Notes under the pieces: generated by a model
Seen by the model: the letters and a program-made list of their open reading frames with translations, nothing else
Database searches by the model: none
What the model was told of the DNA's origin: nothing
Origin: Corallococcus carmarthensis
Lineage (GTDB): Bacteria; Myxococcota; Myxococcia; Myxococcales; Myxococcaceae
Assembly: GCF_003611695.1 (NCBI RefSeq)
Contig: NZ_RAWE01000046.1
Span: 1 to 55,213 of the forward strand
DNA length: 55,213 nucleotides
Reading direction: 5' to 3'
Shown here: positions 18,601-36,643 of the stretch, one piece after another
Numbering within the stretch: the first letter of the stretch is position 1
How the letters are laid out: each line of letters opens with the position of its first letter
Translations under genes and position numbers: made by a program

Positions 18601-21600
18601 CGATAGAGCAGCGGGGCCAGCGCCGCGCCCGAGCCGAAGTCGCCGGGCACGGACTTCGTCTTCACGATGGTGCGCCCCAGCGCGTCCTCGATGAGCTGGT
18701 TGACGAGGTACGTGTCCCCCCCGAGTGCCTGGAGCTGACGGTCCGCGCCGGTGGAGTCCTGAAGGCGCGCTTGAATCACCGGGCCCTCCATCCACGCCAG
18801 GTGGCGCAGGCCGAGCGCTCCCGTGCCCGAGGTGAGCGCCGCGCCTCCGCGTACGTCCGCCGCCACGGAGAACACCAGGCCGCCGTCCGTCCAGAACAGC
18901 AGCCGGCCTCCCGTCACCACCAGCAGCAGCGAGGCCGGACTGGAGGCACCCGTGCCCACGGGCGAGACACCCTGCCCTCCCACTTCCAGGTGCCAGCCCC
19001 CGTCCCAGGAGAGCCGCGCGGCGGTGCCCACCGTGAAGCCGAAGCCCGGCGACAGCCGCACCGGGCCACCATCCACCGCGGTGGGCTCCACGTAGAGGGC
19101 CCACGCCTCCGTCTCCGGCGCGGTGGCGGTGAGCGACGCGTCGGTGGTGCCCTCATGCAGCAGCAGGCCCGAGGCCGCGCGCCACGCGCCCTCCGCCGAC
19201 GGCGTCCAGGCATCACGCCACGCCTCACCGTCGCGGAACGTCTGCACGGTGCCGCCGCGCGTGGCCTGGAGGGCCACCTGGGCGTTCGGATCCCCCGGCT
19301 CGAAGGCGGCGTTGCGCTGGCGGGAGCTGAACTCGAGCTGCACGCCCTTCAGCGATCCGTTGGCGCGCACCTGGCCCACCATGCGCCGGGTGGGGCCATA
19401 GATCGCCCGGGACGTCAGGCCTCCGGGGCCCACGTTGGCCGTCAGTTTTTGCGTCCCCGGCTCGAAGGCCTGCGCCATGACGTTGGCCTCGCGCGGGTAG
19501 AAGCCCACGTCGTCCACCCACAGCTCGCCTCCGCCCGCCTCGACGCGGAGCCTGACGGAGAGCGGGCCGCCGGATGCGACGTGCTCACCCAGCGGAATGG
19601 CCGCCTGCGCCCAGGCCCAGCGCCCGGAGGTGTCGTCCAGCGCGATCCGGAGGGGCTCGCCCACCACCGTGCTTCCCGAGGTCACGGTGATGATCAGCAC
19701 GGGCGACGCGCCTGCCGCGGCGTCGCGGGGGCGCGCGTACCAGCAGCCGGCGACGTAGGTGCGCGCGTTGTCCGCGGGCGTCAGTGGTGCGCGCTCCACG
19801 GCGGCGGTCCCGCCCGGCAGCCACGCGCAGCGGACGCCGGTGTGGGCGCGCTCGGTGGTGACGGCGGCGCCTCCGGTGAAGGTCCACGCGGCAAGCGGCT
19901 CCTGCGACTCGAAGCCGCAGGCGTCGGCCTCCTGCGCTGCCAGGTCCGCGTTCGTCACCATCAACAGCGGCAGCTGCCCGGTGGCATCCACCCGGGTGGA
20001 GTGCGCCACGCCCGTCGCGTCCTTCGACAGCGTGGCGATGCCCCGGGCGTCGCGCGTCAGGATGCTCGTGCGCATGAACCATTCCGGGGGAACGGTGTCC
20101 GCGCCGAACGGGAACCGTGCGCCGTCCGATGCCGTCGAGCCGCCCCAGTCATAGCGGGCGGACACATCGAGCACCATGCAGCCTCCGGCCGTCTCGAAGG
20201 AGCGGTAGGTGGTGGCGGCGCACGCGGACACGGCGTCCACGCCGTCCTTCGGCCACACGCGGGTGCGCATCTGCGCGACGGAGGTCAGCACGTTCTCCCA
20301 CGCCAGGGCGCGCCAGGCGGGCACGGCGGCGGCGAAGGTGGTGGCCATCTCCGTCGTCCACGTCACGCCGTGGACGTCGCGCGTGTCGAACGACTCGGAG
20401 GTGGTGCCACCCGTCAGCGGCGCGGGGAAGCCTCCCAGGTAGCCATAGCGCGTCTCCAGCGCGAGGCCGTCCTTCATGGAGCGGATGCTCGCCGGCCGCA
20501 CGTAGGCGCCATGCAGCATCACCTCGCTCCACGTTCCCGAGGCCGCGTCCTGGAGCGACGTGAAGCCGGCGCGCGACGTGAAGACCTCCCAGGTGTTCGT
20601 CTCGCTGGCGACCAGATGGCCGGTGTAGCCGCGCACCGCCGTGGGGGACTCCGGATCCTCGTCGCTGTCCACCGTGTAGCGGCGCCGGGTGGTGGGATCC
20701 TCGACGGACCAGTACAGGAATCTCCCGTCGACGCGGCGGGCCTCGTAGACGGCCTGGGCGGACAGCGCCGCTCCTGCCGGGAACAGCGCTCGCAGGGCCT
20801 CCGGCACGGGGGTGCCCGGCGCCACGTCGGGAGTGAGGCCCAGGGCCGCGGAGGTGGGCGCGGCGAACAGCGCGGCGCCCTCGAAGGTGAGCGTCTGGAG
20901 GGGCTGGCCGTCCAGCATGCTCAGTCCATCGGCCGTGGTCCCGTTGTCGTAGGTCGTCACGGTCCGCCCGCCATGCGCGGAGGACGGATCGTCACAGCCA
21001 TCCCAGGCCGTGGAGCGGTAGTACTTGATGACCTCGCCGGACGGATCGCACGCGGCGCTCACCCGGTCGAAGCTCCACACGGAGCGCAGCGGCTCACCCA
21101 GGCCGGTGTCGATGGACAGCGAGCGCACCGGGTAGTCCACCAGCGCGCCCTGGATGTCGCCGCCCACGAAGCGGTGCAGGGTGAGGCTTGGCGCGCGCTC
21201 GAAGTCGGGCGCCGTCTGCGGGTAGGTGACGAGGGTGGCGGGGCCCGCGGGGCTCTTGCCCGCGCGAGGCGGAGACAGCAGTCCCTCCGGCGACAGGGGG
21301 CTGACGAACGTCTGTCCGGCGATGGTGGAGGTGGCCTTCGCGCGGCCGTTCTCCAGCAGGGCCAGGGCGATGCGCGCGGCGCCCTGCCCCGGCGGCAGGC
21401 GCCACCCCGCGAAGTCCGGGGCCGCGTCGACGACGCTGAAGAAGTCCGCGCCTTCCGGAGCGCCCTCGTAGACGGGCTGCTCGCTCTCCGGCCCCGTCCA
21501 TCCGGGTGCGGCGCCGCGGTACCAGACGGTGTTGGCGGCGACGATGAAGTCCTCGCCGGTGGCCGCGGGGTAGCCGGAGTCCTCCCCCGGCGGCAGCGCA

Positions 21601-24179
21601 GGCAGCGTCCTCGGCGCGCGGGCGAAGGTGCCACTGTCGGCGTCGTAGGCGAGCAGCCGCGTGGTGATGCCATCCGACACGTTGAGCACCTGCAACACCA
21701 CGTCGCGCCCGTACGCGTAGGCCAGCCAGCCCGGCCGGCCGCGCCCCTGGTCGGTCAGCGCCTCGGAGGTGTTCCAGCCCACGCCATCGAAGCGCCACAG
21801 GTACCGGTCGGTCCCCACCAGCTCATTGCCAGACACGGACGGCACCGGCGGCCATGAAGGCCTGGGCACCTGCGTGACGGAGGACAGGCGCAGGTTCTCC
21901 GCGTCCACGCCCTGCCCTTCCTGGAACTGGTAGTCCGCGTCCCAGCGGCGTACGCGCAGGGCGTAGCGGCCGGTGGCGCTGGAGTCCGTGGCCTCGCACC
22001 ACGCCACCATCGACGGGCCGTCCGCCCAGGACATCTCCGTCTGCCGGGGCCCCAGCTCCACGTCCAGGGAGCCGCCGTCGTTCCACCGGTGGTCGCCGTC
22101 CAGCCACGCCAGCGACACCGTCCCCCTGCCGTTGAGGTGGTGCCACAGCAGGTAGCGCTCGCCGCGAGCGAGCACCTGCATCATCCGTCCCTGCACCGCG
22201 GGCGCATCCCCGCCATTCCAGGTGCGCTGCTGCCAGTCCCAGGTGAGCCGGTAGAGGCTGTCACCGGCGCCGTCGAAGCCGGAGACGGTGGCCAGCAGGA
22301 AGCGCTCTCCGGCGGCGAGCCGGGCGCCCGTCGCCCGCGGGAAGGTGAGCCACGACGTGCCGTGCCCGCCCGAGTACGGCGCCCACTCCCACGCGCGCAG
22401 CGTGCTGCGCCGGAACGGGAGCACGCGCACCTCGTCGCCGACGCGGAAGGTCAGCCCGAAGAAGTCCATGGAGGTGACGCCCGCGAGCGAGTCCGCGTCC
22501 AGCGCCTGCTCACCTTCGTAGACGAGCCCTTCGCCGAGGGTGGAGCGCTGCCAGTGTCCCGTCCACGTGTGGACCTGGAGGCTCAGCCGCTTGCGCTGCG
22601 CATCCAGCCAGCAGGTGACGGCGTAGTCCGGCCCCAGCCAGACGAAGGGCGTGTTGCCGGTGGCGCTGAAGCCCACGGGCGGCGTGACGGTCAGGTCGCG
22701 CTCGCAGATGTCCAGCGGGATGGCGCCGTCGTAGGTGAAGGTGCCGGTGGCACCCTCGGGATAGGTGATGCGCGTGAGCGCGCCCGGGTGGGCCGCGCTG
22801 TCCTCCAGCGCGTAGCCGAACACGTAGCCGGGCAGGCTCCGTCCGGCCGGGTCCTGTTCGGTGATGCCCGTGAGGAAGCGCTTGCAGAGATCGGCGGACG
22901 ACACGGCGGGGGTGCCGGGCAGGGCCTGGGGCGGCGCGTAGTCCAGCTTCACGCGGTACAGCTCGCGGCCCGCGTCGTCCAGGACGCGCAGCCGATGGAG
23001 GTACAGCGTCTCGTAGCGGTCCTGGAAGGCGTTGGGGGTGGTGAGGTTCCCTGGCGCCACGCCGTCGGCGGCGGGCGCGAGCACCTTGTGCGGATCCTGG
23101 TACTCGTGGACGGTGGCCGTGTACCACTTGGGCGCGTAGTCCAGCGCCACGCTCCGGCCGCCCACGCCGGTGATGCTCGAGAGGTAGCAGGCCTTGGTGT
23201 ACGGCAGCCCTTCGGAGCCCACGCGCTGCTCGACGGTGGGGAGCAGTCCGTCCGCGCCGCGCTCGAAGGTGTTGTACGCGTAGGTGACGCGGTCGCCGTA
23301 GCGATCCACGCGCGCGACCAGGTTCCACGCGTGCGCGTACTGCGCCTGGCCTTCCCGGCGCGTCGAGCTGCCCACCCAGCCGCCCCGCTCGCCGCCGAAG
23401 CGCACGCCCCACTCGATGCCGTGGCCGGTGCTGGTGGCGAAGCCCTGGGGGGTGACGGAGACGCCACCGCCGAAGACCCGCTGCGTGCCCGAGTCGTCCA
23501 CCGCCACCCAGCGCTCGTAGGCCGGGTAGTAGCGGACGCGCCAGAAGCTGAAGTCCTGCGGCTCGAAGCCGAGTCCGCCCGCGGCCACCGCGAGCACCGG
23601 GGCGCCGTCCGTGCCGGCCTGCTCGGACAGGACGAAGGACTGCTCGTGGAGGGGATCCTCCACGTCCCACGGGCCCTGACCGCTGACGGTGGCCTGGGTG
23701 GACAGGGGGAGACCGGCTGCGGCGAAGGCGGCGATGAGCTCCTGCGAGACATGGGGCCCGCCGAGCCGCGAGGTCAGCACCGCGTCCAGCAGCGCGCGGA
23801 CCCACGGGCGGGTGGTGGGCACCAGCCGGTTGCGCGAGCCTCCGGACTCCAGGCTGAAGCGCCGCGCGGCGAGCGACAGGGCGCCGTCGGACTCCGCGAC
23901 GATCCGCTCGCGGGGGAGCATCCATCCCAGGCCGGCCACGCCCGTGGGCGCGTCGAGGTTCCAGCGCGTCGCGGCGAGGTGGATGGAGCTGTCATAGGAG
24001 AGGCCCAGCTCCACCGCGAGCGTGTCGTCTCCGAGCTTCCCCGGGAGTTGGACCAGCGGGCGCTGGTAGCTCACCGAGCCTCGGAAGAGGTTGATGCTCT
24101 GCCGGAGGGAGCCGACGTCGGTCGACGCGAACTGGGCAGGACGCTTCGGAGGAACCTGGTTGGGGGCGCGGGGAGGCAT
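15636..24179 (-). CDS. Giant RHS/YD-repeat protein with variable C-terminal domain
   Basis: 2847 residues. The N-terminus (about 1-350) resembles the SpvB/TcdB-like start of RHS and Tc-toxin shells: SINLFRGSVSYQRPLVQLPG and GVAGLGWMLPRE. A long beta-rich section with Trp-rich propeller-like repeats follows (about 480-800), then further beta-rich sequence. From about residue 1990 come YD/RHS repeats (YDCLGRLLRESTPDAGETRY, YGYDGLGRITASE). The RHS core closes at about 2530-2575 with GLYNLNARLMDPVLGRFYAP and a NHPTTRVDRTG end. The remaining 270 residues form a variable tip with Gly/Ala-rich hydrophobic segments (MAVVVFSGAVSAAGTVAGLV; LVSIPLTNLVTLVV) suggestive of membrane interaction. No signal peptide or PAAR domain is seen. 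Toxin delivery is inference from the family. Confidence 0.9.
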   Translation of the reverse strand: MPPRAPNQVPPKRPAQFASTDVGSLRQSINLFRGSVSYQRPLVQLPGKLGDDTLAVELGLSYDSSIHLAATRWNLDAPTGVAGLGWMLPRERIVAESDGALSLAARRFSLESGGSRNRLVPTTRPWVRALLDAVLTSRLGGPHVSQELIAAFAAAGLPLSTQATVSGQGPWDVEDPLHEQSFVLSEQAGTDGAPVLAVAAGGLGFEPQDFSFWRVRYYPAYERWVAVDDSGTQRVFGGGVSVTPQGFATSTGHGIEWGVRFGGERGGWVGSSTRREGQAQYAHAWNLVARVDRYGDRVTYAYNTFERGADGLLPTVEQRVGSEGLPYTKACYLSSITGVGGRSVALDYAPKWYTATVHEYQDPHKVLAPAADGVAPGNLTTPNAFQDRYETLYLHRLRVLDDAGRELYRVKLDYAPPQALPGTPAVSSADLCKRFLTGITEQDPAGRSLPGYVFGYALEDSAAHPGALTRITYPEGATGTFTYDGAIPLDICERDLTVTPPVGFSATGNTPFVWLGPDYAVTCWLDAQRKRLSLQVHTWTGHWQRSTLGEGLVYEGEQALDADSLAGVTSMDFFGLTFRVGDEVRVLPFRRSTLRAWEWAPYSGGHGTSWLTFPRATGARLAAGERFLLATVSGFDGAGDSLYRLTWDWQQRTWNGGDAPAVQGRMMQVLARGERYLLWHHLNGRGTVSLAWLDGDHRWNDGGSLDVELGPRQTEMSWADGPSMVAWCEATDSSATGRYALRVRRWDADYQFQEGQGVDAENLRLSSVTQVPRPSWPPVPSVSGNELVGTDRYLWRFDGVGWNTSEALTDQGRGRPGWLAYAYGRDVVLQVLNVSDGITTRLLAYDADSGTFARAPRTLPALPPGEDSGYPAATGEDFIVAANTVWYRGAAPGWTGPESEQPVYEGAPEGADFFSVVDAAPDFAGWRLPPGQGAARIALALLENGRAKATSTIAGQTFVSPLSPEGLLSPPRAGKSPAGPATLVTYPQTAPDFERAPSLTLHRFVGGDIQGALVDYPVRSLSIDTGLGEPLRSVWSFDRVSAACDPSGEVIKYYRSTAWDGCDDPSSAHGGRTVTTYDNGTTADGLSMLDGQPLQTLTFEGAALFAAPTSAALGLTPDVAPGTPVPEALRALFPAGAALSAQAVYEARRVDGRFLYWSVEDPTTRRRYTVDSDEDPESPTAVRGYTGHLVASETNTWEVFTSRAGFTSLQDAASGTWSEVMLHGAYVRPASIRSMKDGLALETRYGYLGGFPAPLTGGTTSESFDTRDVHGVTWTTEMATTFAAAVPAWRALAWENVLTSVAQMRTRVWPKDGVDAVSACAATTYRSFETAGGCMVLDVSARYDWGGSTASDGARFPFGADTVPPEWFMRTSILTRDARGIATLSKDATGVAHSTRVDATGQLPLLMVTNADLAAQEADACGFESQEPLAAWTFTGGAAVTTERAHTGVRCAWLPGGTAAVERAPLTPADNARTYVAGCWYARPRDAAAGASPVLIITVTSGSTVVGEPLRIALDDTSGRWAWAQAAIPLGEHVASGGPLSVRLRVEAGGGELWVDDVGFYPREANVMAQAFEPGTQKLTANVGPGGLTSRAIYGPTRRMVGQVRANGSLKGVQLEFSSRQRNAAFEPGDPNAQVALQATRGGTVQTFRDGEAWRDAWTPSAEGAWRAASGLLLHEGTTDASLTATAPETEAWALYVEPTAVDGGPVRLSPGFGFTVGTAARLSWDGGWHLEVGGQGVSPVGTGASSPASLLLVVTGGRLLFWTDGGLVFSVAADVRGGAALTSGTGALGLRHLAWMEGPVIQARLQDSTGADRQLQALGGDTYLVNQLIEDALGRTIVKTKSVPGDFGSGAALAPLLYRTGLVDLPAFQASLAGSGVMAGDAADYWNGQAGRSADGGYPYSRRLLEASPLGRTVEVGLAGAAWAIVDPYTTPADSRPTAKVRYAPDAAVLPGLDLPATDFRVTTFISPVGERSLRVRDAKDAPLAVLVPLRDDSTYVSAMELCMEPTGTSTRVILPDGWRDGTDTAIVRDYDCLGRLLRESTPDAGETRYVHDRGGRARFAQTAADAAEGRITWTTYDALSRMTARGHVTAEWNALLLERAELPGWPLTDPGSGAVTTGVWRYDGDGWDALALGQLVGSRSQDTGAPATVDSAYRWTPLGQLEARTLRVTWDDGEEAAPLEVTFGYDNTNALVRLGLPRELFPQPGPLRYGRDVQGNITSIQDEAGTELASFGWDAMARVRTSRSGPVSWELEYDSPGHLLHSTASAGTSATQAYTFAPDSNVRGVSAVLGTQREQLAYGYDGLGRITASETVEGTDAPERFQYEEDLNGNIHELSGARLSYVPGGNRLDVVAWPEGGETSFTWRADGTVSSRRTRGSGPVDLDFAYSPGMALPSRIQVRPGASDASTVEYAYDADGVRVATRVKGPVGEQREVRFPGENQPLFVTGGESGTVLYVPGPTGCPLVYRDGVRYHASSDRLRSTRALFDAQGTLVEGFGYTAFGAAREATGAAPWMRLRFSGAEYDAETGLYNLNARLMDPVLGRFYAPDPADEFPSPYTYAGNHPTTRVDRTGAISDGMRMAVVVFSGAVSAAGTVAGLVLDVTTMGRTAGLSALASMVSAAGWNGMTYALTADDFSWKEFSGAVAVGAATGFIRGAISGGIQGRARAGREEKVRGFPQQAARLAEDAARPDASRATKARKWMSESTYWDQLQKKLNPAEDAWEQFVVALPHSALGNTIGYTVAGLVSIPLTNLVTLVVSGENEFGMDWKDAVNVILDGAWGLTVGVGGTSFGYVKNRYKLKERLTRKLESAGSAMLDGLSGSSVVGGAGGMDFGPAGRLVGVMGIS

Positions 24180-24770: not shown

Positions 24771-25516
24771 GTGCGCCGACATGAACTGAGCGATGCCGAG
24801 TGGAGCCGCATTGAGCCCCTGCTGGGCTTGCGCAGCGGTCCTCCCTCGAAGCGTGGGGACCGCGACTTCATCAACGCCGTCATCTGGCGTGTGAAGACGG
24901 GCGTGCAGTGGCGCGACCTGCCCGAGCGATTCGGCCACTGGAAGACGGTCTACAACCGCTTCCACCGTTGGGCGCAGGCTGGGAGATGGGAAGCCATCTT
25001 CAAAGCCTTGCGGCTTGAAGTGGATGAGCGCGGCTCCCTCGCGGATGCCTCCGTCGTCCGAGCGCACCAGGACGCCTCGGGCGGAAAAGGGGGGTCCGAA
25101 GAAATGCTCTGGGACGTTCTCGAGGAGGTTTTTCAACGAAAGTTCACGCCGTCACAACGACGGGCGGTAAGCCGCTCCACCTCGAAGTAACGCCCGGCCA
25201 ACAGCATGAGTCCACGATGGCCGAGGAGCTGCTGGTGCACGCCGAAGGCGACGCCTTCATCGCGGACACGGGCTACGATGCCGACCGCATCCTCGCCAAC
25301 GTGCGCAAGCTCGGGATGACGCCTGTCATCCACTCCCACCCGGGCCGCAAGCACCCGCCGCCCTTGGACCGCACCCTCTACCGGTTGCGCTACCGGGTGG
25401 AATGCTTCTTCCACGACCTCAAGCGCTTTCGGGCTGCTGCTACCCGCTACGACAAGACGGCGACCTGCTACCTCGCCGTCCTCCACGTCGCCTCCATGCT
25501 TCTCTGGCTGCGTTAA
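24771..25516 (+). CDS. IS427-type transposase made by programmed frameshift (orfA + orfB)
   Basis: orfA starts with GTG at 24771 (MRRHELSDAEWSRIEPLLG) and would end at 25190 (139 residues). The catalytic C-terminal half continues in another frame: GRSRGGFSTKVHAVTTTGGK, ADTGYDADRI and YRVECFFHDLKRFRAAATRY, up to TAA at 25514-25516. Before the switch lies a slippery run, A4G6 at 25085-25094, fitting frameshifting to yield one protein of about 248 residues. Candidate catalytic triad: Asp in LADASVVRAHQ, Asp in ADTGYD, Glu in RVECFFHD. All are present, so the element may be active. Confidence 0.88.
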
Positions 25517-25786: not shown

Positions 25787-26434
25787 ATGATGTACGCACT
25801 GACGGCCGACATCTCGCACATCGAGGAAGAAGATGTCTTCGACGCCGTCAGCATCGAGTTCGACGGCTTCGAGTCCGTGACGTTCCACAAGCCCGGCATC
25901 GACTACCAGCGGGAACGGGGGGCTCCCGAGGTCATTGAGTTCGTTGGCAACCTGGAGAACGCCGCCCGGCTCGACCACCTGTTCACCGCACCCCGGGGGC
26001 TGCTGCTGATCTCCCGGCGCATGGTGCGCGTGCTCGAATCCGTGGGGCCATTCCGCCACCGGCTCATCCCCACGGTCATCTACTCGGAACGCATCAAGCA
26101 GCTGGTGCGGGACCGGTTCACCCGGCAGCGGACCTGGTACCCGGTACAGGACCCCGCGATGAAGAACGAGGACTTCGTCATCCTCCAACTGCTGGAGGAG
26201 ACCGACTGCCTCGACCGGGAACGAACCCTCGTGAAGGGCGTGCCCTTCCACCAATCCGGAGCGGGACTCCTGGGCAGGGAGAAGGCCCGTCCCCTCGTGC
26301 TCCACCCACCACCGGGAGGCTTCCCTCCCGTGTTCGCCGTCCCCGAGCTGGCCTTCTACTGCTTCACGGAGGCAGCCCGGCAGGCATGTGAACAGGCAGG
26401 ACTGAAGGGGCTCTGGTGGAGGCCCCAGCAGTAA
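25787..26434 (+). CDS. Imm11-like (DUF1629) immunity protein, orphaned
   Basis: 215 residues from ATG 25787 (a second ATG at 25790 is equally possible), with GAGGAG about 9 nt upstream. The pattern is that of the Imm11/DUF1629 family common in myxobacteria: an N-terminal DxxxFDGFESVTF strand, LLLISRRMVRVLESVG, then RLIPTVIYSERI, YPVQDPAMKNEDFVILQLLE, and the C-terminal PELAFYCFTEAARQACEQAG LKGLWW region. Such proteins bind and block a toxin encoded just upstream. Here that upstream gene is interrupted by the IS, so this looks like a leftover antidote. The family assignment is by eye. Confidence 0.65.
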   Translation: MMYALTADISHIEEEDVFDAVSIEFDGFESVTFHKPGIDYQRERGAPEVIEFVGNLENAARLDHLFTAPRGLLLISRRMVRVLESVGPFRHRLIPTVIYSERIKQLVRDRFTRQRTWYPVQDPAMKNEDFVILQLLEETDCLDRERTLVKGVPFHQSGAGLLGREKARPLVLHPPPGGFPPVFAVPELAFYCFTEAARQACEQAGLKGLWWRPQQ

Positions 26435-28469: not shown

Positions 28470-28955
28470 ATGAGCACTCCGATGGATCCCTTCATGCGCG
28501 TGGCCTACCGCGGCGCCTACCACCTGGCGCTCGCGTGGTGGTTCGTGCGCCGTCCGCGCACGGAGGGCACGCTCGTAGGGGTGTGGCGCGGCCGCGAGGT
28601 GCTGCTGCTGCAGAACTCCTACAAGCAGGCCTTCTCCCTGCCGGGCGGCGGCCGGCACCGCGACGAGTCCCCGGAGGAGACGGGCGCGCGGGAGTTGCGC
28701 GAGGAGGTGGGCCTGGATGTGCCGGCGTCGCGGCTGCGCTTCGCGTGCGAGCTGCACCACACGGACGAGTTCAAGCGGGACCGGTGTCACTTCGTCGAGC
28801 TGGAGCTCGACACCGAGCCTCACCTCGTGCTCGACCAGCGCGAGGTGGTGTGGGCCCGGTGGCTCGACGTGGAGACCGCGCTGCGGCTGCCGCTCATGCC
28901 CGTGGTGCGCGCCTACCTCGAGGATGCCGCGCGGCGGCGGGGATTCATGCCCTGA
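28470..28955 (+). CDS. Nudix hydrolase
   Basis: 161 residues. A complete Nudix box is present: GGGRHRDESPEETGAR followed by ELREEVGL (G-x5-E-x7-REUxEExGU), binding Mg2+ and cleaving nucleoside-diphosphate-linked substrates. The flanking strands LVGVWRGREVLLLQNSY and CHFVELELDTEP fit the fold. The N-terminal 30 residues (YHLALAWWFVRRP) are mildly hydrophobic. Substrate unknown. No Shine-Dalgarno is seen; a TAGCCT element lies directly upstream. Confidence 0.9.
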   Translation: MSTPMDPFMRVAYRGAYHLALAWWFVRRPRTEGTLVGVWRGREVLLLQNSYKQAFSLPGGGRHRDESPEETGARELREEVGLDVPASRLRFACELHHTDEFKRDRCHFVELELDTEPHLVLDQREVVWARWLDVETALRLPLMPVVRAYLEDAARRRGFMP

Positions 28956-29279
28956 CGGGACGGCCTTCGGGCCTCAGCTGAAGCCATCGTCAGTCAATGA
29001 CAGACATTGCCCCGGTTCGTCCATGCGAGGAGCCTTGACCGCGCTTCGCCGCCGCGCGACGAGCCCACGGACGGAGGCCTGGAGCCCCCAGCCCAACGCG
29101 ACCAGCCCCACCGATTCTCCGATGCGCGTCAAGCGGCGAAGACAAGCCGGCGCGGGCGCCAGGTGCCCCGTCGCGGGATGCTGGCGTTGGACGCCCGTGC
29201 TCACGGTGCGCGCGGGCCGCGGGGTTGCCCGTGGCCGCCTGCTCCGGGTGCCGTGAGGACGGGGTAGGCTCCCGGGCTC
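28956..29279. other. 324-bp intergenic region upstream of the CHAT/STAND genes
   Basis: No gene is supported. A minus-strand frame near 28977-29130 (ending in MDEPGQCLSLTDDGFS) has protein-like composition but no start codon, so I do not call it. At 29265-29270 TAGGCT lies 9 nt before the ATG at 29280 and is a candidate -10 box for the CHAT-STAND operon. No repeat or operator was found. Confidence 0.5.
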
Positions 29280-31313
29280 ATGAGCACGAGCGGAACGGCG
29301 GCGCCCGGATTCTGGCTGGAGGTCGACCTCGCGCTGGCAGGCGAGGAGGTCAGCGCCACGGCGCGGGGCAGCGGGGGCCAACAGCCCGCGCCGCACATGT
29401 TGGGGCCCGCGCACTCGCTCGAGGCCCTCCGCCGCTTCGGCGAGTGGGTGCGGGACGCGGCCGTGCGCGGGGGGCCCCTGGAGTCTCCCGAGCAGGCGCG
29501 GGCGCTGCATTCCGCGCTCTTCCGCGATGGACTCCAGGAGGTGCTGCTCGAGCTGCGCGGGGTGTTGCGCAACACCGGGAGCAAGAAGCCGCTGCTGCTG
29601 CGGCTCCTGCCCCGGGACCGCGAGCTCCAGGCGCTTCCCTGGGAGGCGCTCTGTGGACCGCTCGGGGCGCTCGACTTCCTCGGCATCTCGCCGGAGATGT
29701 GCATCGTGCGCGGGGTGCAGTCCACGAAGCCCTGGCTTCCTCGCGAGGTCACCGGCGCCGTGCGGCTGCTCGTCGTCTCGCCGCTGGACGCGGAGGCACC
29801 GGCCCGCCTGCGCGCCATGCTCCAGCCGGCCATCGACTCCGGAGCGCTGGAGTGGATGGAGCCGCTCGTGGGGCCCCGCACGCGGCGCGACTACGTCATC
29901 GACCGGCTCCGCTCCGAGCCCGCGCCGCACATCCTGCACTTCATCGGGCATGGCGGCGTGGACACGCGGGGAGCCCCGGTCCTGCAACTCACGGATGCGG
30001 ACGGCGCGTCCGCGGGGCTTCCCGTGGAGCTGCTGGCGAAGGAGCTGGCGGGAGCCTTCCGGGGCGACCTGCGATTGGTGGTGCTCGAAGCCTGTGAGGG
30101 CGCGCAACCGGGGACGCTGACGAGCGCGGCGGAGCTGCTCGCACAGGGCGGCGCGGACGCGGTGGTGGCGCACCTGTGGCCGGTGAAGACAGACGTGGCG
30201 CGCGCGTGCTCGCGGGCCTTCTACCGCGCGTTGGTGGGAGACACCCGGCACCGGGGCGACGTGGCCCGCTGCCTCCACGACGCACGCAGCACGGTGCTGA
30301 CGGAGTTCAACGAGAGCGCCGAGGCCTTCTCCCCCGTGCTGTACCTGCGGGGCAGTGACACCACCCTCTTCTCCTTCCGGCCCGCCCGGGCGAACAGCGC
30401 CCCCCGAGCCCCCGTGCAGGCCGAACCGGTGCGCGCGGAGGACCCCTCCCTGCGCGGGCTGATGGACCTGGTCTCACGTCCCTTCTCCCTGGTGCTGGGC
30501 GACCACGGCGGCACCCCGGACGACGACCTGCGGGAGCTGCTGCACGGCCGGATGCGGGGCACGCCGTGGGCCGTGCCGGAGGCACTGCCGATGAGCGCGC
30601 TGGCGCAGCGATTCACGCTGCGCTTCGGGCCGAAGACGCTGGACTCGCACTTCCAGGAGGTGTTCCGGGATGCGATGCCCACCCTGCCGCTGGTGGAGGC
30701 GCTGGCGCGGCGGCTGAGGCCCGGCGTCCACATCACGCTCTTGCGCATGCCCGTGTTGGAGCAGGCGCTCGCGCTGCACCGGCCCGAGCTGCCGCTGTAC
30801 GTCATCCAGCCCTCGACGCCCGACGAGGGCTCCGCGCTGATCCGGCGGCGCCTGCCGGGGCAGGACTGGGAACCGCTCGACACGCTGCCCCTGGACTTCG
30901 ACCCATCGCGCGACGTGGCGCTGGTGAGGCTGTACCGGGGCTACCTGCCCGACCGCGTCTTCGAAACGCCCCTGCTCACGGAGGACGACTACCTGCACGG
31001 CGTGCGCGACCTGGAGTCCGTCCTGCCGCCGGACCTGGCGGACGCCATCCTGGGGACGCTGGACAGCCGGCCCGCGCTGCTCATCGGACTGTCCTTGCTC
31101 GCATGGCACCACCGCATGCTGCTGTCGCGGCTGTTCGGACGCCGGCCGCTCCCTCGCAAGAGCCTGGTCCTGCTGGAGCCCGGGGTGCATGAGGCGGAGT
31201 CGTGGAGGTCTGGCCGGGGCCTCCCCGCGGGCGCGGGCATCCAGGTGGTGCAGGCGGACGCGGGCGCGGTGGCCGAGTCCCTGGGCGTGGGGACGCCGGG
31301 AGGTTCGCGATGA
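29280..31313 (+). CDS. CHAT protease fused to a degenerate SIR2-like domain
   Basis: 677 residues. Residues about 60-365 form a CHAT (caspase/separase-like) peptidase: LRLLPRDRELQALPWEAL, the His motif HFIGHGGVD (His224), the Cys motif VLEACEGAQPG (Cys272) and AVVAHLWPVKTDVARACSRAF. Residues about 390-625 read like a SIR2-family domain: TEDDYLHGVRDLE resembles the SIR2 'TeedY' segment and ALLIGLSLLAWHHRMLL the 'flGySl.D...r.l' helix. The SIR2 catalytic positions look lost: the TTNYD-type Asn motif reads TLLRMPVLEQAL and the HG motif reads LYRGYL. So a protease is predicted, with a probably non-catalytic SIR2-like part. The stop overlaps the STAND gene start by 4 bp. Confidence 0.85.
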   Translation: MSTSGTAAPGFWLEVDLALAGEEVSATARGSGGQQPAPHMLGPAHSLEALRRFGEWVRDAAVRGGPLESPEQARALHSALFRDGLQEVLLELRGVLRNTGSKKPLLLRLLPRDRELQALPWEALCGPLGALDFLGISPEMCIVRGVQSTKPWLPREVTGAVRLLVVSPLDAEAPARLRAMLQPAIDSGALEWMEPLVGPRTRRDYVIDRLRSEPAPHILHFIGHGGVDTRGAPVLQLTDADGASAGLPVELLAKELAGAFRGDLRLVVLEACEGAQPGTLTSAAELLAQGGADAVVAHLWPVKTDVARACSRAFYRALVGDTRHRGDVARCLHDARSTVLTEFNESAEAFSPVLYLRGSDTTLFSFRPARANSAPRAPVQAEPVRAEDPSLRGLMDLVSRPFSLVLGDHGGTPDDDLRELLHGRMRGTPWAVPEALPMSALAQRFTLRFGPKTLDSHFQEVFRDAMPTLPLVEALARRLRPGVHITLLRMPVLEQALALHRPELPLYVIQPSTPDEGSALIRRRLPGQDWEPLDTLPLDFDPSRDVALVRLYRGYLPDRVFETPLLTEDDYLHGVRDLESVLPPDLADAILGTLDSRPALLIGLSLLAWHHRMLLSRLFGRRPLPRKSLVLLEPGVHEAESWRSGRGLPAGAGIQVVQADAGAVAESLGVGTPGGSR

Positions 31314-34300
31314 GCAACCTGGTGAACCCCTTCCTCGGGCCGCAGCCCTACCGCGCGGCGGACCGCGAGCGCTTCTTCGGCCGCGAGACCGTGACGCAGC
31401 GGCTGGTGAACCGCATCCTCGCGCACCCGTGCCTCACGCTCTTCGGCCCCTCGGGCGCGGGGAAGTCGTCGGTGATGCAGGCCGGCGTGATTCCGCTGCT
31501 GGAGGAGGTGCACGAGTTCCGCACGGTGCGCATCGACGGGTGGCTCGCGGGGGAGGCTCCGCTGGCGCGGCTGGTGCGCACGATGCACACGGAGCTGGAG
31601 CTGGGGCCGCCGCCGGAGCAGGCGGGGACGGCGCAGGCGCTGGACGCGGCGCTGGAGCTCGCCTCGCAGCGGTCGGACCGGCCGGTGCTCATCTACCTGG
31701 ACCAACTGGAGCAGCTCTTCCTTCCGGGGCGCGACGTGGAGGCGACAGGCGCGCTGCTGAAGGGGCTGGACGCGCTGGCACGCAAGCCGGTGCGTGGGCT
31801 GCAGCTCGTGCTGGCGATGCGCGAGGACTACCTGGGGCGCTTCCGGGACCGAGTGCGGGGCCGGCGCGAGTTGCTGGAGCAGGGCTTCCGGCTGGGGCCG
31901 CTCACCGTGGGCGAGATGGTGAAGGTGTCGTGCCGGCTGGCCACCGAGAAGGGCCTGCCCTCGCAGCCCTGGGCCGAGCAGGAGGTGCGCGCGCTGATGC
32001 GGCAGGTGCGCATGGCGGGCCAGGGCGAGCAGGACGATGACGCCGAGGTGCAGGCCGCGTTCGCGCAGATCGTCTGCCGGGCGCTGTGGGACGAACGGGC
32101 GCGGGGCCAGGCCGTGGAGCCTGTCGCCGCGGAGCCGATGGTGCACCGCTACCTGGAGGCGACGCTGGACGCGCTCGGCTCCGACAAGAAGAAGGCGACG
32201 CGCCGGTTGCTGGAGCAGCACCTCATCGCGAGCGACGGCAGCCGGACCCTGCTGACGGAGCAGGAGGCCCGCGCCGAGCTGCCACCCGAGCACGCGGACG
32301 CGGTGCTGACGCACCTGGAAGCGGCGGCGGTGCTGCACGCGGAGCAGCACCAGGGCAGCCGGTACTTCGAATTGGGACACGACTGGCTCGCGCGCAAGGT
32401 CTTCGACCTCAAGCAGCAGCGCATCGAGCGGGAGTCAGCGCAACGGCAGCGCCGGCGTGAAGCGGCCGAGCGGCGCAGGCTCATCGTCCTGGCCTCGGTG
32501 GCGGTGGGCGTGGCGGTGATGATGACCCTGCTGCTCGTCTGGGCCTGGACGGAGCGAACCCAGGCGGAGCGGGCGAAGAAGGACGCGGATCTCGCGAAGC
32601 AGGAAGCCGTCAGGCAGGCGCGCGACGCGCGGGGATTGGCGTTGATGACGGGGGCTCGCGACCTGCAAGGCCGCGGCTACACCGCGATGGCCACGAAGCT
32701 GCTGCTCGAAGTCCCTGAACCCGAGCAGGCGCGGTGGTGGACGCAGCTGGCGCATGACTTCCTGAAGGAACCCCTCCCGGAGGCGACGCTCCAGGGAACA
32801 GCTCCGCTCAACGTCGCGGCCTTCAGCCCGGACGGCCAGCGGGTGGCGGCGGCCTCCAGGGAGGGACCGGCGTGGGTATGGCGCCTGGACGGGACGGGCA
32901 CACCCGTGGCGTTGACGGGCCATGAGGGCATCGTCGGCTCCATCGAGTTCAGCCCTGACGGGCAATGGGTCGCGACCGCCAGCCAGGACGCCACCGTCCG
33001 GGTGTGGCGGGCGGATGGGACGGGCACGCCCGTGGTGCTCCAGGGGTACGAGGACACCGTCCACTCCGCGAGGTTCAGTCCGGATGGCCAGTGGCTGGTG
33101 ACGGCTTCGGCGGACATGAGCGTGCAGGTGCGGCGGGCGGATGGAACCGGCAAGCCCGTGCTGCTGGCCGGGCACGAGGCCTCGGTCCTGTCGGCGCGCT
33201 TCAGCCCGGACGGGCGGCGCGTGGTGACGGCGTCGTACGACGGGACGGCGCGGGTGTGGCGGGCGGATGGGAAGGGCTCGTCCGTCGTGCTCAAAGGGCA
33301 CACGAAGCCCGTCTCCTCCGCCGGGTTCAGCCCGGATGGCCGGTGGGTGGTGACGGCTTCCGAGGACAAGACGGCGCGGGTGTGGAAGGCGGATGGGACG
33401 GGCTCGCCCGTCGTGCTCAAAGGGCATGAGGGGAACGTGACCTCCGCCACGTTCAGCCCGGATGGCCAGTGGGTGGTGACGGCTTCCGAGGACAAGACGG
33501 CGCGGGTGTGGAAGGCGGATGGGACGGGCACACCCGTCGTGCTCAAAGGGCATACGGACCTCTTCACCTCCGCGGAGTTCAGCCCGGATGGCAGGTGGGT
33601 GGTGACCACGTCCCTCGACGGGACCGCGAGGGTGTGGAGGGCGGATGGAAGGGGCCCCCCCCGGATGCTCAAGGGTCACCAGGGCTGGGTCGCGGACGCG
33701 CGATTCAGTCCGGACGGGCAGCGGATCATCACCGCGTCCAGCGATGGAGCCCTCCGGGTCTGGAAGGCGGGCGGGCCGGAGCTTCCCGTGGTGTTCCAGA
33801 GCCCCGGAGACGCGGCCGACGCGGTCCGGTCCGCGCGGTTCAGTCCGGATGGGCAGCGGGTCGTCACGGCGGGCACCGACGGAGCGGCACGCGTCTGGCG
33901 CACGGAGGGGACGGGAGCCCCCGTGGTGCTCGATGGGCACGCGGGCCCCGTTTCGTCCGCCGCGTTCAGCCCGGATGGACACCAGGTGGTGACGGTCTTC
34001 GAGAACGGGAGTGCGCGGGTGTGGCGGGCGGATGGGATGGGCTCTCCGGTGATGCTGGAGGATCCGCACAGGCCCATTGGATCAGCGGAGTTCAGTCCGG
34101 ATGGCCAGTCGGTGTTGACCACGTCCGGGGGCGTGCCCCAGGTGTGGAGGGCGGACGGGAGCGGGACACCTCGGGAGCTGGGGTCCGACGATGCGCGCTC
34201 CGCCCGGTTCAGCCGCGATGGGCAGTGGGTCGTGACCGCGTTTGTCCGGACCCCGAGGGTGCTGAGGACGGATGGAACAGGCACGCCCGTGGAGCTCAAG

Positions 34301-34957
34301 GGACATGAGCGCCGCGTCCTCTCCGCCGAGTTCAGCCAGGACGGCCAGTGGGTGGTGACGGCTTCCGAGGACTGGACCGCGCGGGTGTGGAGGGTGGACG
34401 GGACGGGCACGCCCGTCGTGCTCAAGGGGCATGGGGGTGACGTCTATTCCGCGAGCTTCAGCCCGGATGGCCAGTGGGTGGTGACGGCGTCCGCGGACAA
34501 GACCGCGCGGGTGTGGAGGGCGGACGGAACGGGCACGCCTGTCGTGCTCAAGGGACACCTGAACGTCGTCTCCTCCGCCCGCTTCAGCCCGGATGGCCAG
34601 TGGGTGGTGACGACCTCGGTTGACCAGACCACGCGGGTGTGGAGGGCGGACGGAACGGGCCTGCCCCTGGTGCTCCAGGGATGTGAGACGGAGGTCGCCT
34701 CCGCCGAGTTCAGTCCGGACGGGCACCAGGTCCTGACCGTTTGCGATGATGGAGCGGCGCAACTCTGGCCCCTGGATGTTTCGGAGCTCCAGCGGCGGCT
34801 TCGGGCCGTCAACAAGGACTGCCTTCCTCCGGACGTCCGTCGCAGCTACCTGGACGAAAGCGAGGAACAGGCTCGAAGCGCCTATGCGGAATGTGAGCGG
34901 GTCCAGGGACGGGATCCGCTCGTGACGCCGCCCCCGACGCTACGGCTGCTGCCCTGA
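31310..34957 (+). CDS. Transmembrane STAND NTPase with 16 WD40 repeats
   Basis: 1215 residues, translationally coupled to the CHAT gene (ATGA). N-terminus NPFLGPQPYRAADRERFFGR is the signature opening of the nSTAND1 group. Walker A is GPSGAGKS (46-53), Walker B VLIYLDQLEQLF (about 127-138), then AMREDYLG as sensor. A helical region leads to one membrane helix at about 391-416 (IVLASVAVGVAVMMTLLLVW) and an Ala/Arg/Lys-rich coiled stretch. Sixteen WD40 blades run from about 503 to 1155 (FSPDGQWVVTAS.D.TARVW..DGTG). STAND ATPases act as switches that oligomerise when the repeat region senses a signal. Coupling to a protease suggests it gates the CHAT enzyme. The stop overlaps the convergent gene's end by 18 bp. 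Confidence 0.9.
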   Translation: MSNLVNPFLGPQPYRAADRERFFGRETVTQRLVNRILAHPCLTLFGPSGAGKSSVMQAGVIPLLEEVHEFRTVRIDGWLAGEAPLARLVRTMHTELELGPPPEQAGTAQALDAALELASQRSDRPVLIYLDQLEQLFLPGRDVEATGALLKGLDALARKPVRGLQLVLAMREDYLGRFRDRVRGRRELLEQGFRLGPLTVGEMVKVSCRLATEKGLPSQPWAEQEVRALMRQVRMAGQGEQDDDAEVQAAFAQIVCRALWDERARGQAVEPVAAEPMVHRYLEATLDALGSDKKKATRRLLEQHLIASDGSRTLLTEQEARAELPPEHADAVLTHLEAAAVLHAEQHQGSRYFELGHDWLARKVFDLKQQRIERESAQRQRRREAAERRRLIVLASVAVGVAVMMTLLLVWAWTERTQAERAKKDADLAKQEAVRQARDARGLALMTGARDLQGRGYTAMATKLLLEVPEPEQARWWTQLAHDFLKEPLPEATLQGTAPLNVAAFSPDGQRVAAASREGPAWVWRLDGTGTPVALTGHEGIVGSIEFSPDGQWVATASQDATVRVWRADGTGTPVVLQGYEDTVHSARFSPDGQWLVTASADMSVQVRRADGTGKPVLLAGHEASVLSARFSPDGRRVVTASYDGTARVWRADGKGSSVVLKGHTKPVSSAGFSPDGRWVVTASEDKTARVWKADGTGSPVVLKGHEGNVTSATFSPDGQWVVTASEDKTARVWKADGTGTPVVLKGHTDLFTSAEFSPDGRWVVTTSLDGTARVWRADGRGPPRMLKGHQGWVADARFSPDGQRIITASSDGALRVWKAGGPELPVVFQSPGDAADAVRSARFSPDGQRVVTAGTDGAARVWRTEGTGAPVVLDGHAGPVSSAAFSPDGHQVVTVFENGSARVWRADGMGSPVMLEDPHRPIGSAEFSPDGQSVLTTSGGVPQVWRADGSGTPRELGSDDARSARFSRDGQWVVTAFVRTPRVLRTDGTGTPVELKGHERRVLSAEFSQDGQWVVTASEDWTARVWRVDGTGTPVVLKGHGGDVYSASFSPDGQWVVTASADKTARVWRADGTGTPVVLKGHLNVVSSARFSPDGQWVVTTSVDQTTRVWRADGTGLPLVLQGCETEVASAEFSPDGHQVLTVCDDGAAQLWPLDVSELQRRLRAVNKDCLPPDVRRSYLDESEEQARSAYAECERVQGRDPLVTPPPTLRLLP
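32811..34774 (+). repeat. WD40-coding tandem repeats, 16 units of about 126 bp
   Basis: Unit length is 126 bp in the best-conserved part: the CCCGGATGGC core at 33331 recurs at 33457. Those two adjacent units differ at only about 3 of 98 aligned bases, including third codon positions, so duplication or gene conversion is recent. Units 11 and 12 are shorter and more diverged. Confidence 0.85.
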
Positions 34958-36403
34958 AAGCCTTGCAGCGGGGTCTCCGAGCAGCACGTAGCCGCGCAAG
35001 TCATTGCGTTGCATCCACTGATGACCCTGTCGCTTCGGATCGACAGGATCCGGAATGCCATACACCTGCGCGTCCTGCCGCGCCCGGTAGCCCGCCAGCA
35101 GCGCATCGTTGACGCCCCGGTATGCGCTCATCAGCGCGTCCAGGGCGACGCCCGCGCGGCTGCCATTTGACAGGACCTGGAGCGCGGAGAGGACGCGCGA
35201 GGCACGGCTGCGCGTCATGTCCTCCGTGTCCAGGAACCCGAGCGTCCACGCCAGGTCGCTGTGGCCGATGATGCCCAGCGGGCCGCGCGGGTTCGCCAGC
35301 AGGGCCTGGGGCAGCGCCGCCACGAAGGGACGCTCCCCCGCCCTGGGCAGGCTGTGCAGCACGGAGTCGGGACGGCCCGAGAACCCGCCGGCCGCGGCGA
35401 TCTGCGCAAGCCATGCATGGAACGCGCTGTCCGCCGGGGTCGCCGCGCCGAAGCACGCCACGCTGAACCACATGCCTCCCGGCAGGAAGGGCGTATCCCG
35501 CAGCAGCGCTCCCGTGAGCGGTGGGCCTCCGCCCAGCGTCAGCGCGCCCTGCATGGCCCGCTGCTCCTGGGCAGAAGCCCAGCCCTTCGAGGGCCGCCCC
35601 AACCCATGCGCCACCGTGAGCATCACCGCCGAGCGCGCATGGGCCGCGGCCTCCAGCAGCGCGTCCGCGTCCGAGTAGTCATAGGGAACCTCCTGGACCT
35701 TCAACGCGGGCCGCTTCTGCTTCCACCGCGTCTCCATGATCTGCCGGCACGGCTCCACCAGCAGCTGGTGTCCCGAGGCCGTGGCCGTCGTCCCGTCCCG
35801 CGCCGTGTACAGGAGCATGTCGGGGGCCTCCGGAGGCGCGCCCCGCTTCTCGGCCGCGATCACCTTCTGGGCATAGGACGTGTAGCCCGAGAGGTCCGGT
35901 TCACCGTCGGGCAGCCCCACGTGAAGCCGTCCCACGAACGCGCCATGCGCGAGCACGTGCTGCAACTCCATGGACACGTCGGGCAGGTCCCCGAGCAGCA
36001 GCAGGTACCTGGGACGTTCCTCCTCGGGGACGTCCTCGGCCCGGTGCACCGATTCCTTCCAGCGCACCGCCGCGTTCGCGTCCATGCCGGGAGGAACGCG
36101 GTAGCGCATCACGGGAGCGCCCTGCTCCTTCTCACGGTGCTGGAGGAGCGGCTCCATGGCGCGCAGCAGGGCATCGCCCGTCGTGCCCAGGGGCGCGATG
36201 ACACCCCAGCGCTGCGAGGGCAGGTCATTCGGGTTCGCGTCGGGGCGCTCCAGCGTCATCCCCTCGGCACCGCGAAGAAGCGGCGCGGGCCTGGGTGCAT
36301 CCCGGGTGGAGTCCGCGGGAAGTCCTTCCTCCAGCACGGGCCGGCGGTCGTCAGCGCGCGAGAGCAGGAGCTGCAGCGCTTCATCCTTCACGGGCTCGGG
36401 CAT
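34940..36403 (-). CDS. Caspase-clan (gingipain/CHAT-like) cysteine protease
   Basis: 487 residues, converging with the STAND gene and overlapping its end by 18 bp. Two-part layout: residues about 60-170 (RWGVIAPLG, RPRYLLLLGDLPDVSMELQH) resemble the first subdomain of C25/gingipain-like proteins, and the second holds a His motif MLTVAHGLGRP (His266) and a Cys motif WFSVACFGAATP (Cys317), the dyad of clan CD peptidases. A GIIGHSDLAWT segment follows. No signal peptide is seen, so it is cytoplasmic. ATG 36403 has only a weak AAGG next to it; an internal start (MTLERPD) is possible. Likely a partner or target of the neighbouring CHAT/STAND pair. Confidence 0.7.
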   Translation of the reverse strand: MPEPVKDEALQLLLSRADDRRPVLEEGLPADSTRDAPRPAPLLRGAEGMTLERPDANPNDLPSQRWGVIAPLGTTGDALLRAMEPLLQHREKEQGAPVMRYRVPPGMDANAAVRWKESVHRAEDVPEEERPRYLLLLGDLPDVSMELQHVLAHGAFVGRLHVGLPDGEPDLSGYTSYAQKVIAAEKRGAPPEAPDMLLYTARDGTTATASGHQLLVEPCRQIMETRWKQKRPALKVQEVPYDYSDADALLEAAAHARSAVMLTVAHGLGRPSKGWASAQEQRAMQGALTLGGGPPLTGALLRDTPFLPGGMWFSVACFGAATPADSAFHAWLAQIAAAGGFSGRPDSVLHSLPRAGERPFVAALPQALLANPRGPLGIIGHSDLAWTLGFLDTEDMTRSRASRVLSALQVLSNGSRAGVALDALMSAYRGVNDALLAGYRARQDAQVYGIPDPVDPKRQGHQWMQRNDLRGYVLLGDPAARLSGQQP

Positions 36404-36643
36404 CCTTCGGCTTCCGGTAGGAGCCCGTCAGAACCGCGGCACGGGTGGGTGCCCCCTGTGCAGCGGTCTGGCGGACTCGGTGCCCCAGCATCTTCGCCGA
36501 AGACCTGTCCGCGGCACCGGCTTCCCCCGGCTTGATTCCAGATTCCGGAGCCCGGTCCAGGAAATGGAAACAGCCCTCCGCCGTGCTTGCGCCCTCTCCG
36601 CCAATCCCTTGCAATGATTGAAATTGAGCCGTGACACCCTGCG

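Follow-up and report, generated by a model that had tools for sequence, protein, structure and literature searches.

How do two clan CD proteases that are encoded beside one NTPase receptor relate to each other? This question is raised by a locus of Corallococcus carmarthensis (NCBI RefSeq assembly GCF_003611695.1, contig NZ_RAWE01000046.1; the whole stretch of 55,213 nucleotides that was analysed is called the window), in which gene 1 (29280-31313, +, 677 aa) encodes a CHAT protease fused to a SIR2-fold domain, gene 2 (31310-34957, +, 1215 aa) a receptor composed of an nSTAND1 NTPase, a predicted transmembrane helix, and WD40 blades, and gene 3 (34940-36403, -, 487 aa) a C25-like, gingipain-fold protease. 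Genome comparison shows the C25 protease to be a recurrent and general partner of CHAT proteases of STAND, TPR, and anti-sigma architectures, in which, as judged from sequence, both the pairing and the catalytic dyads persist.

A preliminary description of the locus had claimed a CHAT protease (His224, Cys272) fused to a SIR2-like domain, coupled by 4 bp to a membrane-anchored STAND gene with 16 WD40 blades, and a convergent second clan CD protease (His266, Cys317) overlapping by 18 bp. These elements were borne out by the Pfam CHAT match, the invariant dyad, and the predicted SIR2 fold for gene 1, by the ATGA overlap of genes 1 and 2, the nSTAND1 profile, the blade motifs, and one transmembrane helix predicted by hydropathy for gene 2, and by the stops, the dyad alignment, and the predicted gingipain fold for gene 3. 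All three reading frames are backed by third-position GC. The start of gene 2 was set at the ATG at 31310 because this position fits the 4-bp coupling, the listed open reading frame (ORF) start at 31202 being too early. Genes 2 and 3 overlap at 34940-34957, with stops at 34957 (+) and 34940 (-). No sigma-70-type promoter was found between 28900 and 36700 by a method that covers myxobacterial promoters poorly.

To evaluate the partnership, all PF12770 (CHAT) places in ten complete genomes (125 over the cut-off) were compared with all gene 3 places. As a result, all 22 C25 copies that carry the N-terminal peptide described below were within 10 kb of a CHAT, several of them being tandem neighbours or sharing one CHAT, and a 23rd copy (G068:C1:7130628, where G numbers denote genomes and L numbers loci), whose match starts at model position 36, is fused to a CHAT in cis. 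In 10,000 circular shifts of the positions, with the fusion copy counted, on average 0.52 of the 23 copies lay this close to a CHAT, and never more than 6. Within 5 kb, 9 of the 23 copies had a CHAT, and one of three C25 copies that are without the N-terminal peptide had one within 10 kb, adjoining the fusion locus. Conversely, gene 3 lies within 10 kb of only 27 among the 125 CHATs, and the dependence thus runs mainly from C25 to CHAT.

The genome searches scored only the best first-look candidates, so that absences are soft. Order-wide, with weak matches counted, gene 3 has a match in 42 of 145 genomes and gene 1 in 29. The neighbourhood of the three genes, on which the preliminary description had staked its reading, was found to be conserved: a gene 3 relative lies within 10 kb at 25 of 32 family-level CHAT-SIR2 loci (hand count), and in all 20 of the loci L061-L080 a STAND gene comes after the CHAT gene, with gene 3 present in 15. 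Furthermore, a CHAT was within 10 kb of 61 of the 88 C25 copies at 76 Myxococcota loci, which came from the best 80 of 175 confirmed stretches in a scan of 84,980 species genomes. Gene 3 relatives (29-50% identical) stand beside single-chain CHAT-nSTAND1(-WD40) proteins and also in operons that encode an extracytoplasmic function (ECF) sigma factor and a zinc-finger-TPR-CHAT protein, the latter being an orthologue of DdvA (8rot, E 9.5e-186). The orientation of C25 to CHAT varies, the gene being convergent, upstream, or downstream. Operon-like runs of an ECF sigma factor, a DdvA-like anti-sigma factor, and C25 are seen at L086:6421-11822 and L088:3663-9716 and also at L130, L095, L097, and L098; at L099:11517-13487, a lipoxygenase gene lies between the CHAT and C25 genes.

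The pairing extends beyond Myxococcota, as seen on plasmids that were searched with gene 3 and with two of its matches as queries. The search gave 8 records, and in all seven loci viewed (Planktothrix, Nostoc, Sinorhizobium, one of two Bradyrhizobium plasmids, Gemmobacter, and two Embleya) a CHAT adjoins C25 or lies within 6.4 kb of it, so that the pairing occurs in three phyla besides Myxococcota (cyanobacteria, alphaproteobacteria, and Embleya). On the Nostoc plasmid, two CHAT-nSTAND1 chains, of which the first has WD40 blades, come after C25, and on the Planktothrix plasmid the order is CHAT-nSTAND1, transposase, WD40, and C25. The Sinorhizobium, Bradyrhizobium, and Gemmobacter loci have in addition an alpha/beta-hydrolase-like gene (weak scores), and no relative of the Sinorhizobium one was found in the myxobacterial loci at E 1e-6. 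The three-part make-up that the preliminary description had pointed out therefore stands as a recurrent unit and not as a mere three-part oddity, since C25 partners CHATs of several architectures, also outside Myxococcota.

On a tree of 122 C25 sequences (a quick tree with many open forks, N-terminal peptide and linker excluded), the partner class changed 36 times, compared with 71 times after shuffling (0/200 as low), indicating that partner classes are inherited yet repeatedly swapped. CHAT and C25 distances were correlated, with an r of 0.88 for 16 family-level copies (several per genome) and an r of 0.75 for 36 pairs (0/5000 permutations each). Several points weigh against the partnership or against its catalytic nature. 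Seven of the 32 CHAT-SIR2 loci are without C25 within 10 kb (three in G043, two in G082, one in G046 with the CHAT part only, and one at a contig end), and 27 of the 88 C25 copies are without a CHAT within that distance, 8 of these being <5 kb from a sequence end. Among the 122 distinct C25 copies, which were partly collected through CHAT matches and so are not an unbiased sample, 29 are CHAT-less, and 13 of the 29 have a calcineurin-like metallophosphatase within 5 kb. In both single-chain CHAT-nSTAND1-C25 proteins (L100:5598-9263, -; L166:7382-11497, +), the C25 part is without His and Cys, so that C25 may also act as a non-catalytic part. Correlated distances, finally, are also predicted by co-inheritance as one unit alone. 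As to the arrangement of CHAT-less copies, C25 often lies 30-170 bp after the metallophosphatase (L122:1549-4619, L136:1709-4780, L139, L140, L145, L082, and others).

The identity of gene 3 was examined by structure prediction. The model built from 60 relatives, with a pLDDT (predicted local distance difference test) of 91.8 and a pTM (predicted template modelling score) of 0.93, was closest to the gingipains (VIA; RgpB Z 25.5 over 302 residues, Kgp Z 23.8), the scores for other clan CD folds being far lower (Craspase CHAT Z 14.8, separase 14.7). The best solved match in Foldseek was also RgpB (1cvr, E 1.4e-7, TM by query 0.48), and the lower rows were unrelated binding proteins with low TM. 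The label rests on the fold, as the Pfam Peptidase_C25 match of gene 3 (E 0.0011, 18.7 bits) does not reach the gathering score of 23, which is exceeded by the relatives at L099 (31.3), L194 (30.0), and L195 (25.5). NCBIfam and PDB sequence searches gave no useful name for either protease. In the 60-row alignment, His266 (codon 35606-35608, -) is invariant, and Cys317 (codon 35453-35455, -) is present in at least 90% of rows; both are kept in 118 of the 122 C25 copies, the four losses being the fusions L100 and L166 and the CHAT-less copies L092 and L131. Among the nearest CHATs that were listed, His and Cys are kept as well, with the exception of L138, where the alignment is without one residue in each CHAT. 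Cys is replaced (Ser, Gly) in the C25 relatives at L129:10007-11485 and L131:10061-11527, which lie beside a nucleoside hydrolase and a pentapeptide/periplasmic-binding protein; the Pfam neighbour scan for this pair covered L129.

The anatomy of gene 3 looks zymogen-like in the model. A confident N-terminal peptide (residues 10-36; 36296-36376, -; mean pLDDT 95, 90, and 84 for residues 11-20, 21-30, and 31-40), conserved in A1, is followed by a loose, flexible linker (residues 37-60; 36224-36295, -; mean pLDDT 59 for residues 41-50) with the motif LLRGAEG (42-48) as a candidate cleavage site, and no signal peptide is evident. An LP[GR]R[AV]E-like motif is seen in the linker of C25 copies beside CHAT-SIR2, and other text is seen beside other CHATs. 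This pattern, which was composed after the sequences had been inspected and loses weight by that, matches 23 of 36 SIR2-type C25 copies versus 5 of 86 others; among the latter five, L109 stands at a contig end and is itself of the SIR2 type, and L118 falls in the SIR2-type clade of a preliminary tree. The motif is a candidate cut site or docking site, and it may also represent simple clade identity.

Gene 1 matches Pfam CHAT (residues 72-342; 29493-30305, +; E 2.3e-20), and its His224 (codon 29949-29951, +) and Cys272 (codon 30093-30095, +) are invariant in an 18-row alignment. Its model, built from 18 relatives, had a pLDDT of 80.2 and a whole-model pTM of only 0.57, so that the mutual placement of the domains is unsure. 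Residues 1-367 resembled (VIA) the Craspase CHAT (Z 21.2), separase (21.2), and SAVED-CHAT (20.1); identity to the last is 22%, in an alignment that is confined to residues 156-366 and in which His and Cys align, and the PADLOC SAVED_CHAT model matches gene 1 at E 1.1e-8. Residues 387-673 (30438-31298, +) are predicted to have a SIR2 fold, with a VIA Z of 16.1 over 236 residues to the SIR2 domain of DSR2, 15.4 to ThsA, and a Foldseek TM by target of 0.65. This label also rests on the fold, the Pfam SIR2_2 match being below the cut-off (E 0.059). Both folds that the preliminary description depended on, SIR2 in gene 1 and clan CD in gene 3, were hence predicted. Inspection by eye found LGD, HxTLL, and LYRGY at the stretches where the canonical SIR2 motifs, an NAD-binding GAG and a catalytic Asn and His, would be expected. 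Because such motifs are not visible in the alignment, the domain is likely, though not proved, to be a pseudo-SIR2 without NAD chemistry. No conserved cleavage motif was seen by eye in the CHAT-SIR2 interdomain linker (residues about 368-386) in the 18-row alignment. Weak matches suggesting KaiB identity for gene 1 were set aside as chance.

Gene 2 matches Pfam nSTAND1 (residues 7-383; 31328-32458, +; E 1.9e-35, 123.7 bits versus a cut-off of 27.1) and also WD40, with 16 blades of about 42 aa each recognised by their motifs (32813-34825, +) and a tandem repeat with a period of 126 at 32822-34675. The two parts are separated by the predicted transmembrane helix IVLASVAVGVAVMMTLLLV (32483-32539, +; Kyte-Doolittle (KD) hydropathy 2.75), with a net charge of +5 before it and +1 after it. 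By the positive-inside rule, this charge difference places the WD40 blades probably outside the cytoplasm and the NTPase inside. A hydrophobic segment between the NTPase and the blades is present in 63 of 68 STAND rows (duplicates counted), and the charge difference is absent from some rows. With the helix in this position, the sensor is possibly extracytoplasmic, and this speaks against a simple cytosolic sensor of phage proteins. In a PADLOC scan of gene 2 (E up to 0.1), the only match was Csx19, which fell in the blades (E 0.0017), and no model of a described antiviral STAND (Avs) matched.

The ratio of nonsynonymous to synonymous substitution rates (dN/dS) across six orthologues was 0.12 for the NTPase, 0.17 for CHAT, 0.16 for SIR2, and 0.17 for the catalytic part of C25, and it was 0.49 for the membrane linker and 0.48 for WD40. 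After all blade positions had been surveyed, they were compared with those of the fungal HNWD proteins, in which, according to the available text of PMC1805685, WD40 codons 7, 9, 25, and 27 are positively selected and flank the conserved codons 8 and 26. By the register of our motif alignment, the equivalents of these four are positions 40, 42, 16, and 18, around 41 and 17. In the 13 regular blades of the six orthologues, dN/dS at these propeller-face positions was 1.35 (bootstrap 0.93-1.98) versus 0.36 for the other 38, and positions 42, 16, 40, and 18 ranked 1, 2, 3, and 5 of 42 by dN; the four were equalled by 2 of 111,930 quadruples by dN and by 597 of 111,930 by ratio. The comparison of orthologous sequences thus shows that the putative binding face of the propeller diverges fast. 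Splitting was seen in the STAND gene of Corallococcus sp. AS-1-6 (678 + 539 aa ORFs; L181/L101, G070) and in the CHAT-SIR2 gene of G043 (L079), suggesting that the module may sometimes be disabled by frame damage, or else that these are sequencing errors.

Comparison with empty sites in relatives further shows that the three genes form one inherited and mobile unit. The insert (28957-36530) contains exactly these genes and takes up ~7.57 kb in the window, versus 11-17 bp between the NUDIX and response-regulator flanks in G057, G059, and G062, where the three genes are absent; in these genomes, the match to the window reaches 28939/28956 and, 11-17 bp on, is followed by a match to 36529-36532. 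The right flank is common to G058, G068, and G070, and in G061, G064, and G066 the unit stands at another site, with the shared block stopping near 36504. Full-length gene 1 is present in 7 of 16 genus genomes. A search for shared or inverted 9-mers between 28921-29100 and 36351-36560 gave no terminal repeats, nor was a recombinase found within the insert. For the C25 family, an origin from a virus or prophage was rejected, as none of 24 pattern matches in viral contigs was confirmed as a relative and none was in phages.

Elsewhere in the window, the gene at 10170-11360 (+) encodes a ricin-type lectin domain, also matches, below the cut-off, an anthrax-lethal-factor-like fold family, and is possibly a predation or conflict protein. 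A 2847-aa protein with a sub-cut-off DUF6443 match (15636-24179, -) may be a toxin-immunity remnant together with an Imm11-like gene (25787-26434, +), which lies beyond a transposase fragment at 25217-25516.

With a little less than even confidence, we propose that an NLR-like transmembrane receptor activates CHAT and that CHAT activates C25, the three genes thereby forming a mobile alarm module. The STAND protein would cross the inner membrane, so that the NTPase faces the cytoplasm and the variable WD40 propeller probably the outside. A ligand on the propeller would cause the NTPase to oligomerise and would bring together CHAT-SIR2 subunits, for which the SIR2 fold would be a scaffold and not an NADase. 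The clustered CHAT would become active and might cut the flexible linker of C25 behind its putatively docked N-terminal peptide, and the released gingipain-fold protease would then cut cell proteins as an amplifier or executioner, with growth stop or death as the presumed outcome. The preliminary description had made the second protease a substrate, amplifier, or executioner; these roles fit, the order of action between the proteases being something that we infer. A wider reading, in which the transmembrane NLR senses non-self at the surface through a propeller face whose diversified positions are those of fungal allorecognition receptors and the CHAT-then-C25 cascade serves kin/non-self recognition in myxobacteria and has spread over several phyla as an undescribed conflict system, is rather unlikely as a whole. 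A further point weighs against the proposal, namely, that relaxed constraint is still compatible with the dN/dS of the propeller face and its bootstrap interval.

It may also be that the order is the reverse, with C25 standing upstream or acting as a regulator, which cleaves CHAT, its STAND partner, or, in the anti-sigma context, a DdvA-like protein and thereby switches the CHAT module on or off. The C25 copies that adjoin the DdvA orthologue in ECF-sigma operons are in line with this, the event that inactivates DdvA being unknown according to the available text of PMC4374960, and the CHAT-less copies beside the metallophosphatase suggest that C25 can work without CHAT. The class-linked motif, however, sits in the linker of C25, whereas the linker of CHAT-SIR2 is unconserved, and the CHATs beside it retain both catalytic residues, for which a mere substrate would have no use; we consider the reverse order unlikely, though not negligible. 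Intact dyads in 118/122 C25 copies and in the nearest CHATs are in line with two proteases that serve one receptor as separate weapons and do not cleave each other, and gene 3 in the window is indeed transcribed apart on the opposite strand. Such parallel action is nonetheless improbable, as the correlated divergence and the specific linker motif suggest direct contact, although shared descent could give both. Enrichment in myxobacteria and the ECF-sigma/anti-sigma context of the same protease family could instead point away from defence, to a membrane sensor in charge of regulated proteolysis and of gene expression during multicellular life, like the DdvS/DdvA branch. Patchy presence, a clean mobile insert, and a fast propeller face fit conflict or recognition better, and we regard this signalling or developmental role as quite doubtful.

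Several known systems resemble the locus in part. Craspase (Csx29, a TPR-CHAT) shares the CHAT fold and the logic of a receptor-gated CHAT protease with a neighbour gene, but its gate is RNA-guided. Csx30, the neighbour of Csx29, is its substrate and is not known to be a protease. The CHAT of gene 1 belongs to the same subfamily as that of SAVED-CHAT, which reportedly has a PCaspase partner; gene 1 differs in that it has no SAVED domain, its remainder being a SIR2 fold, and in that the gate is STAND-WD40 and the second protease a gingipain-fold C25. SAVED-CHAT of type III-B CRISPR and of CBASS (cyclic-oligonucleotide-based antiphage signalling system) acts through a proteolysis cascade, according to the available text of PMC11229360, and this cascade is the nearest described logic. 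The nSTAND1 conflict systems and the VMAP/vWA-MoxR ternary systems of multicellular bacteria likewise combine STAND, peptidase, and second enzyme, with a caspase-superfamily peptidase paired, according to the available text of PMC7159879, with an alpha/beta hydrolase gene. A gene of alpha/beta-hydrolase type is also carried by the three plasmid loci mentioned above, but the second enzyme here is a C25 protease, which that text does not name. MoxR and vWA were not among the Pfam matches of ten window proteins at and beside the locus. The fungal HET-D/HET-E (HNWD) proteins, which are NLRs of allorecognition, are cytosolic, have a NACHT NTPase and a HET effector, and are not known to have a transmembrane helix or protease, whereas the locus has nSTAND1 and a separate CHAT gene. 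They share with gene 2 an NTPase with repetitive WD40 and the same four fast positions (available text of PMC1805685). DdvS/DdvA of Myxococcus xanthus is linked through the DdvA orthologues (8rot) that adjoin the same C25 family, but in DdvA the CHAT is combined with TPR and with a zinc finger of the anti-sigma type, and WD40 is absent. The gingipains have the overall fold and the His/Cys dyad of gene 3, which differs in being only 14% identical, in the lack of an evident signal peptide, and in having an intracellular genetic partner. A literature search of partial coverage (few subscription journals and preprints) gave no description of a pairing between C25 proteases and CHAT. Taken together, the locus appears to combine known parts in a way that is recurrent and undescribed, as a variant among the NTPase-gated protease systems known from multicellular bacteria.

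In the cell death of animals and fungi, the control of caspase-like proteases by NLR-type receptors is a major theme. If the proposal is true, the recurrent pair of two different clan CD proteases that answer to one receptor, one of them gingipain-like, would parallel in bacteria of at least three phyla the initiator and executioner caspases, and a so far unnamed C25 family would gain a defined function. C25 is also a candidate for the unknown trigger or inactivating step of DdvA-type anti-sigma factors. Furthermore, the convergent diversification of receptors in bacteria and fungi would become directly testable.

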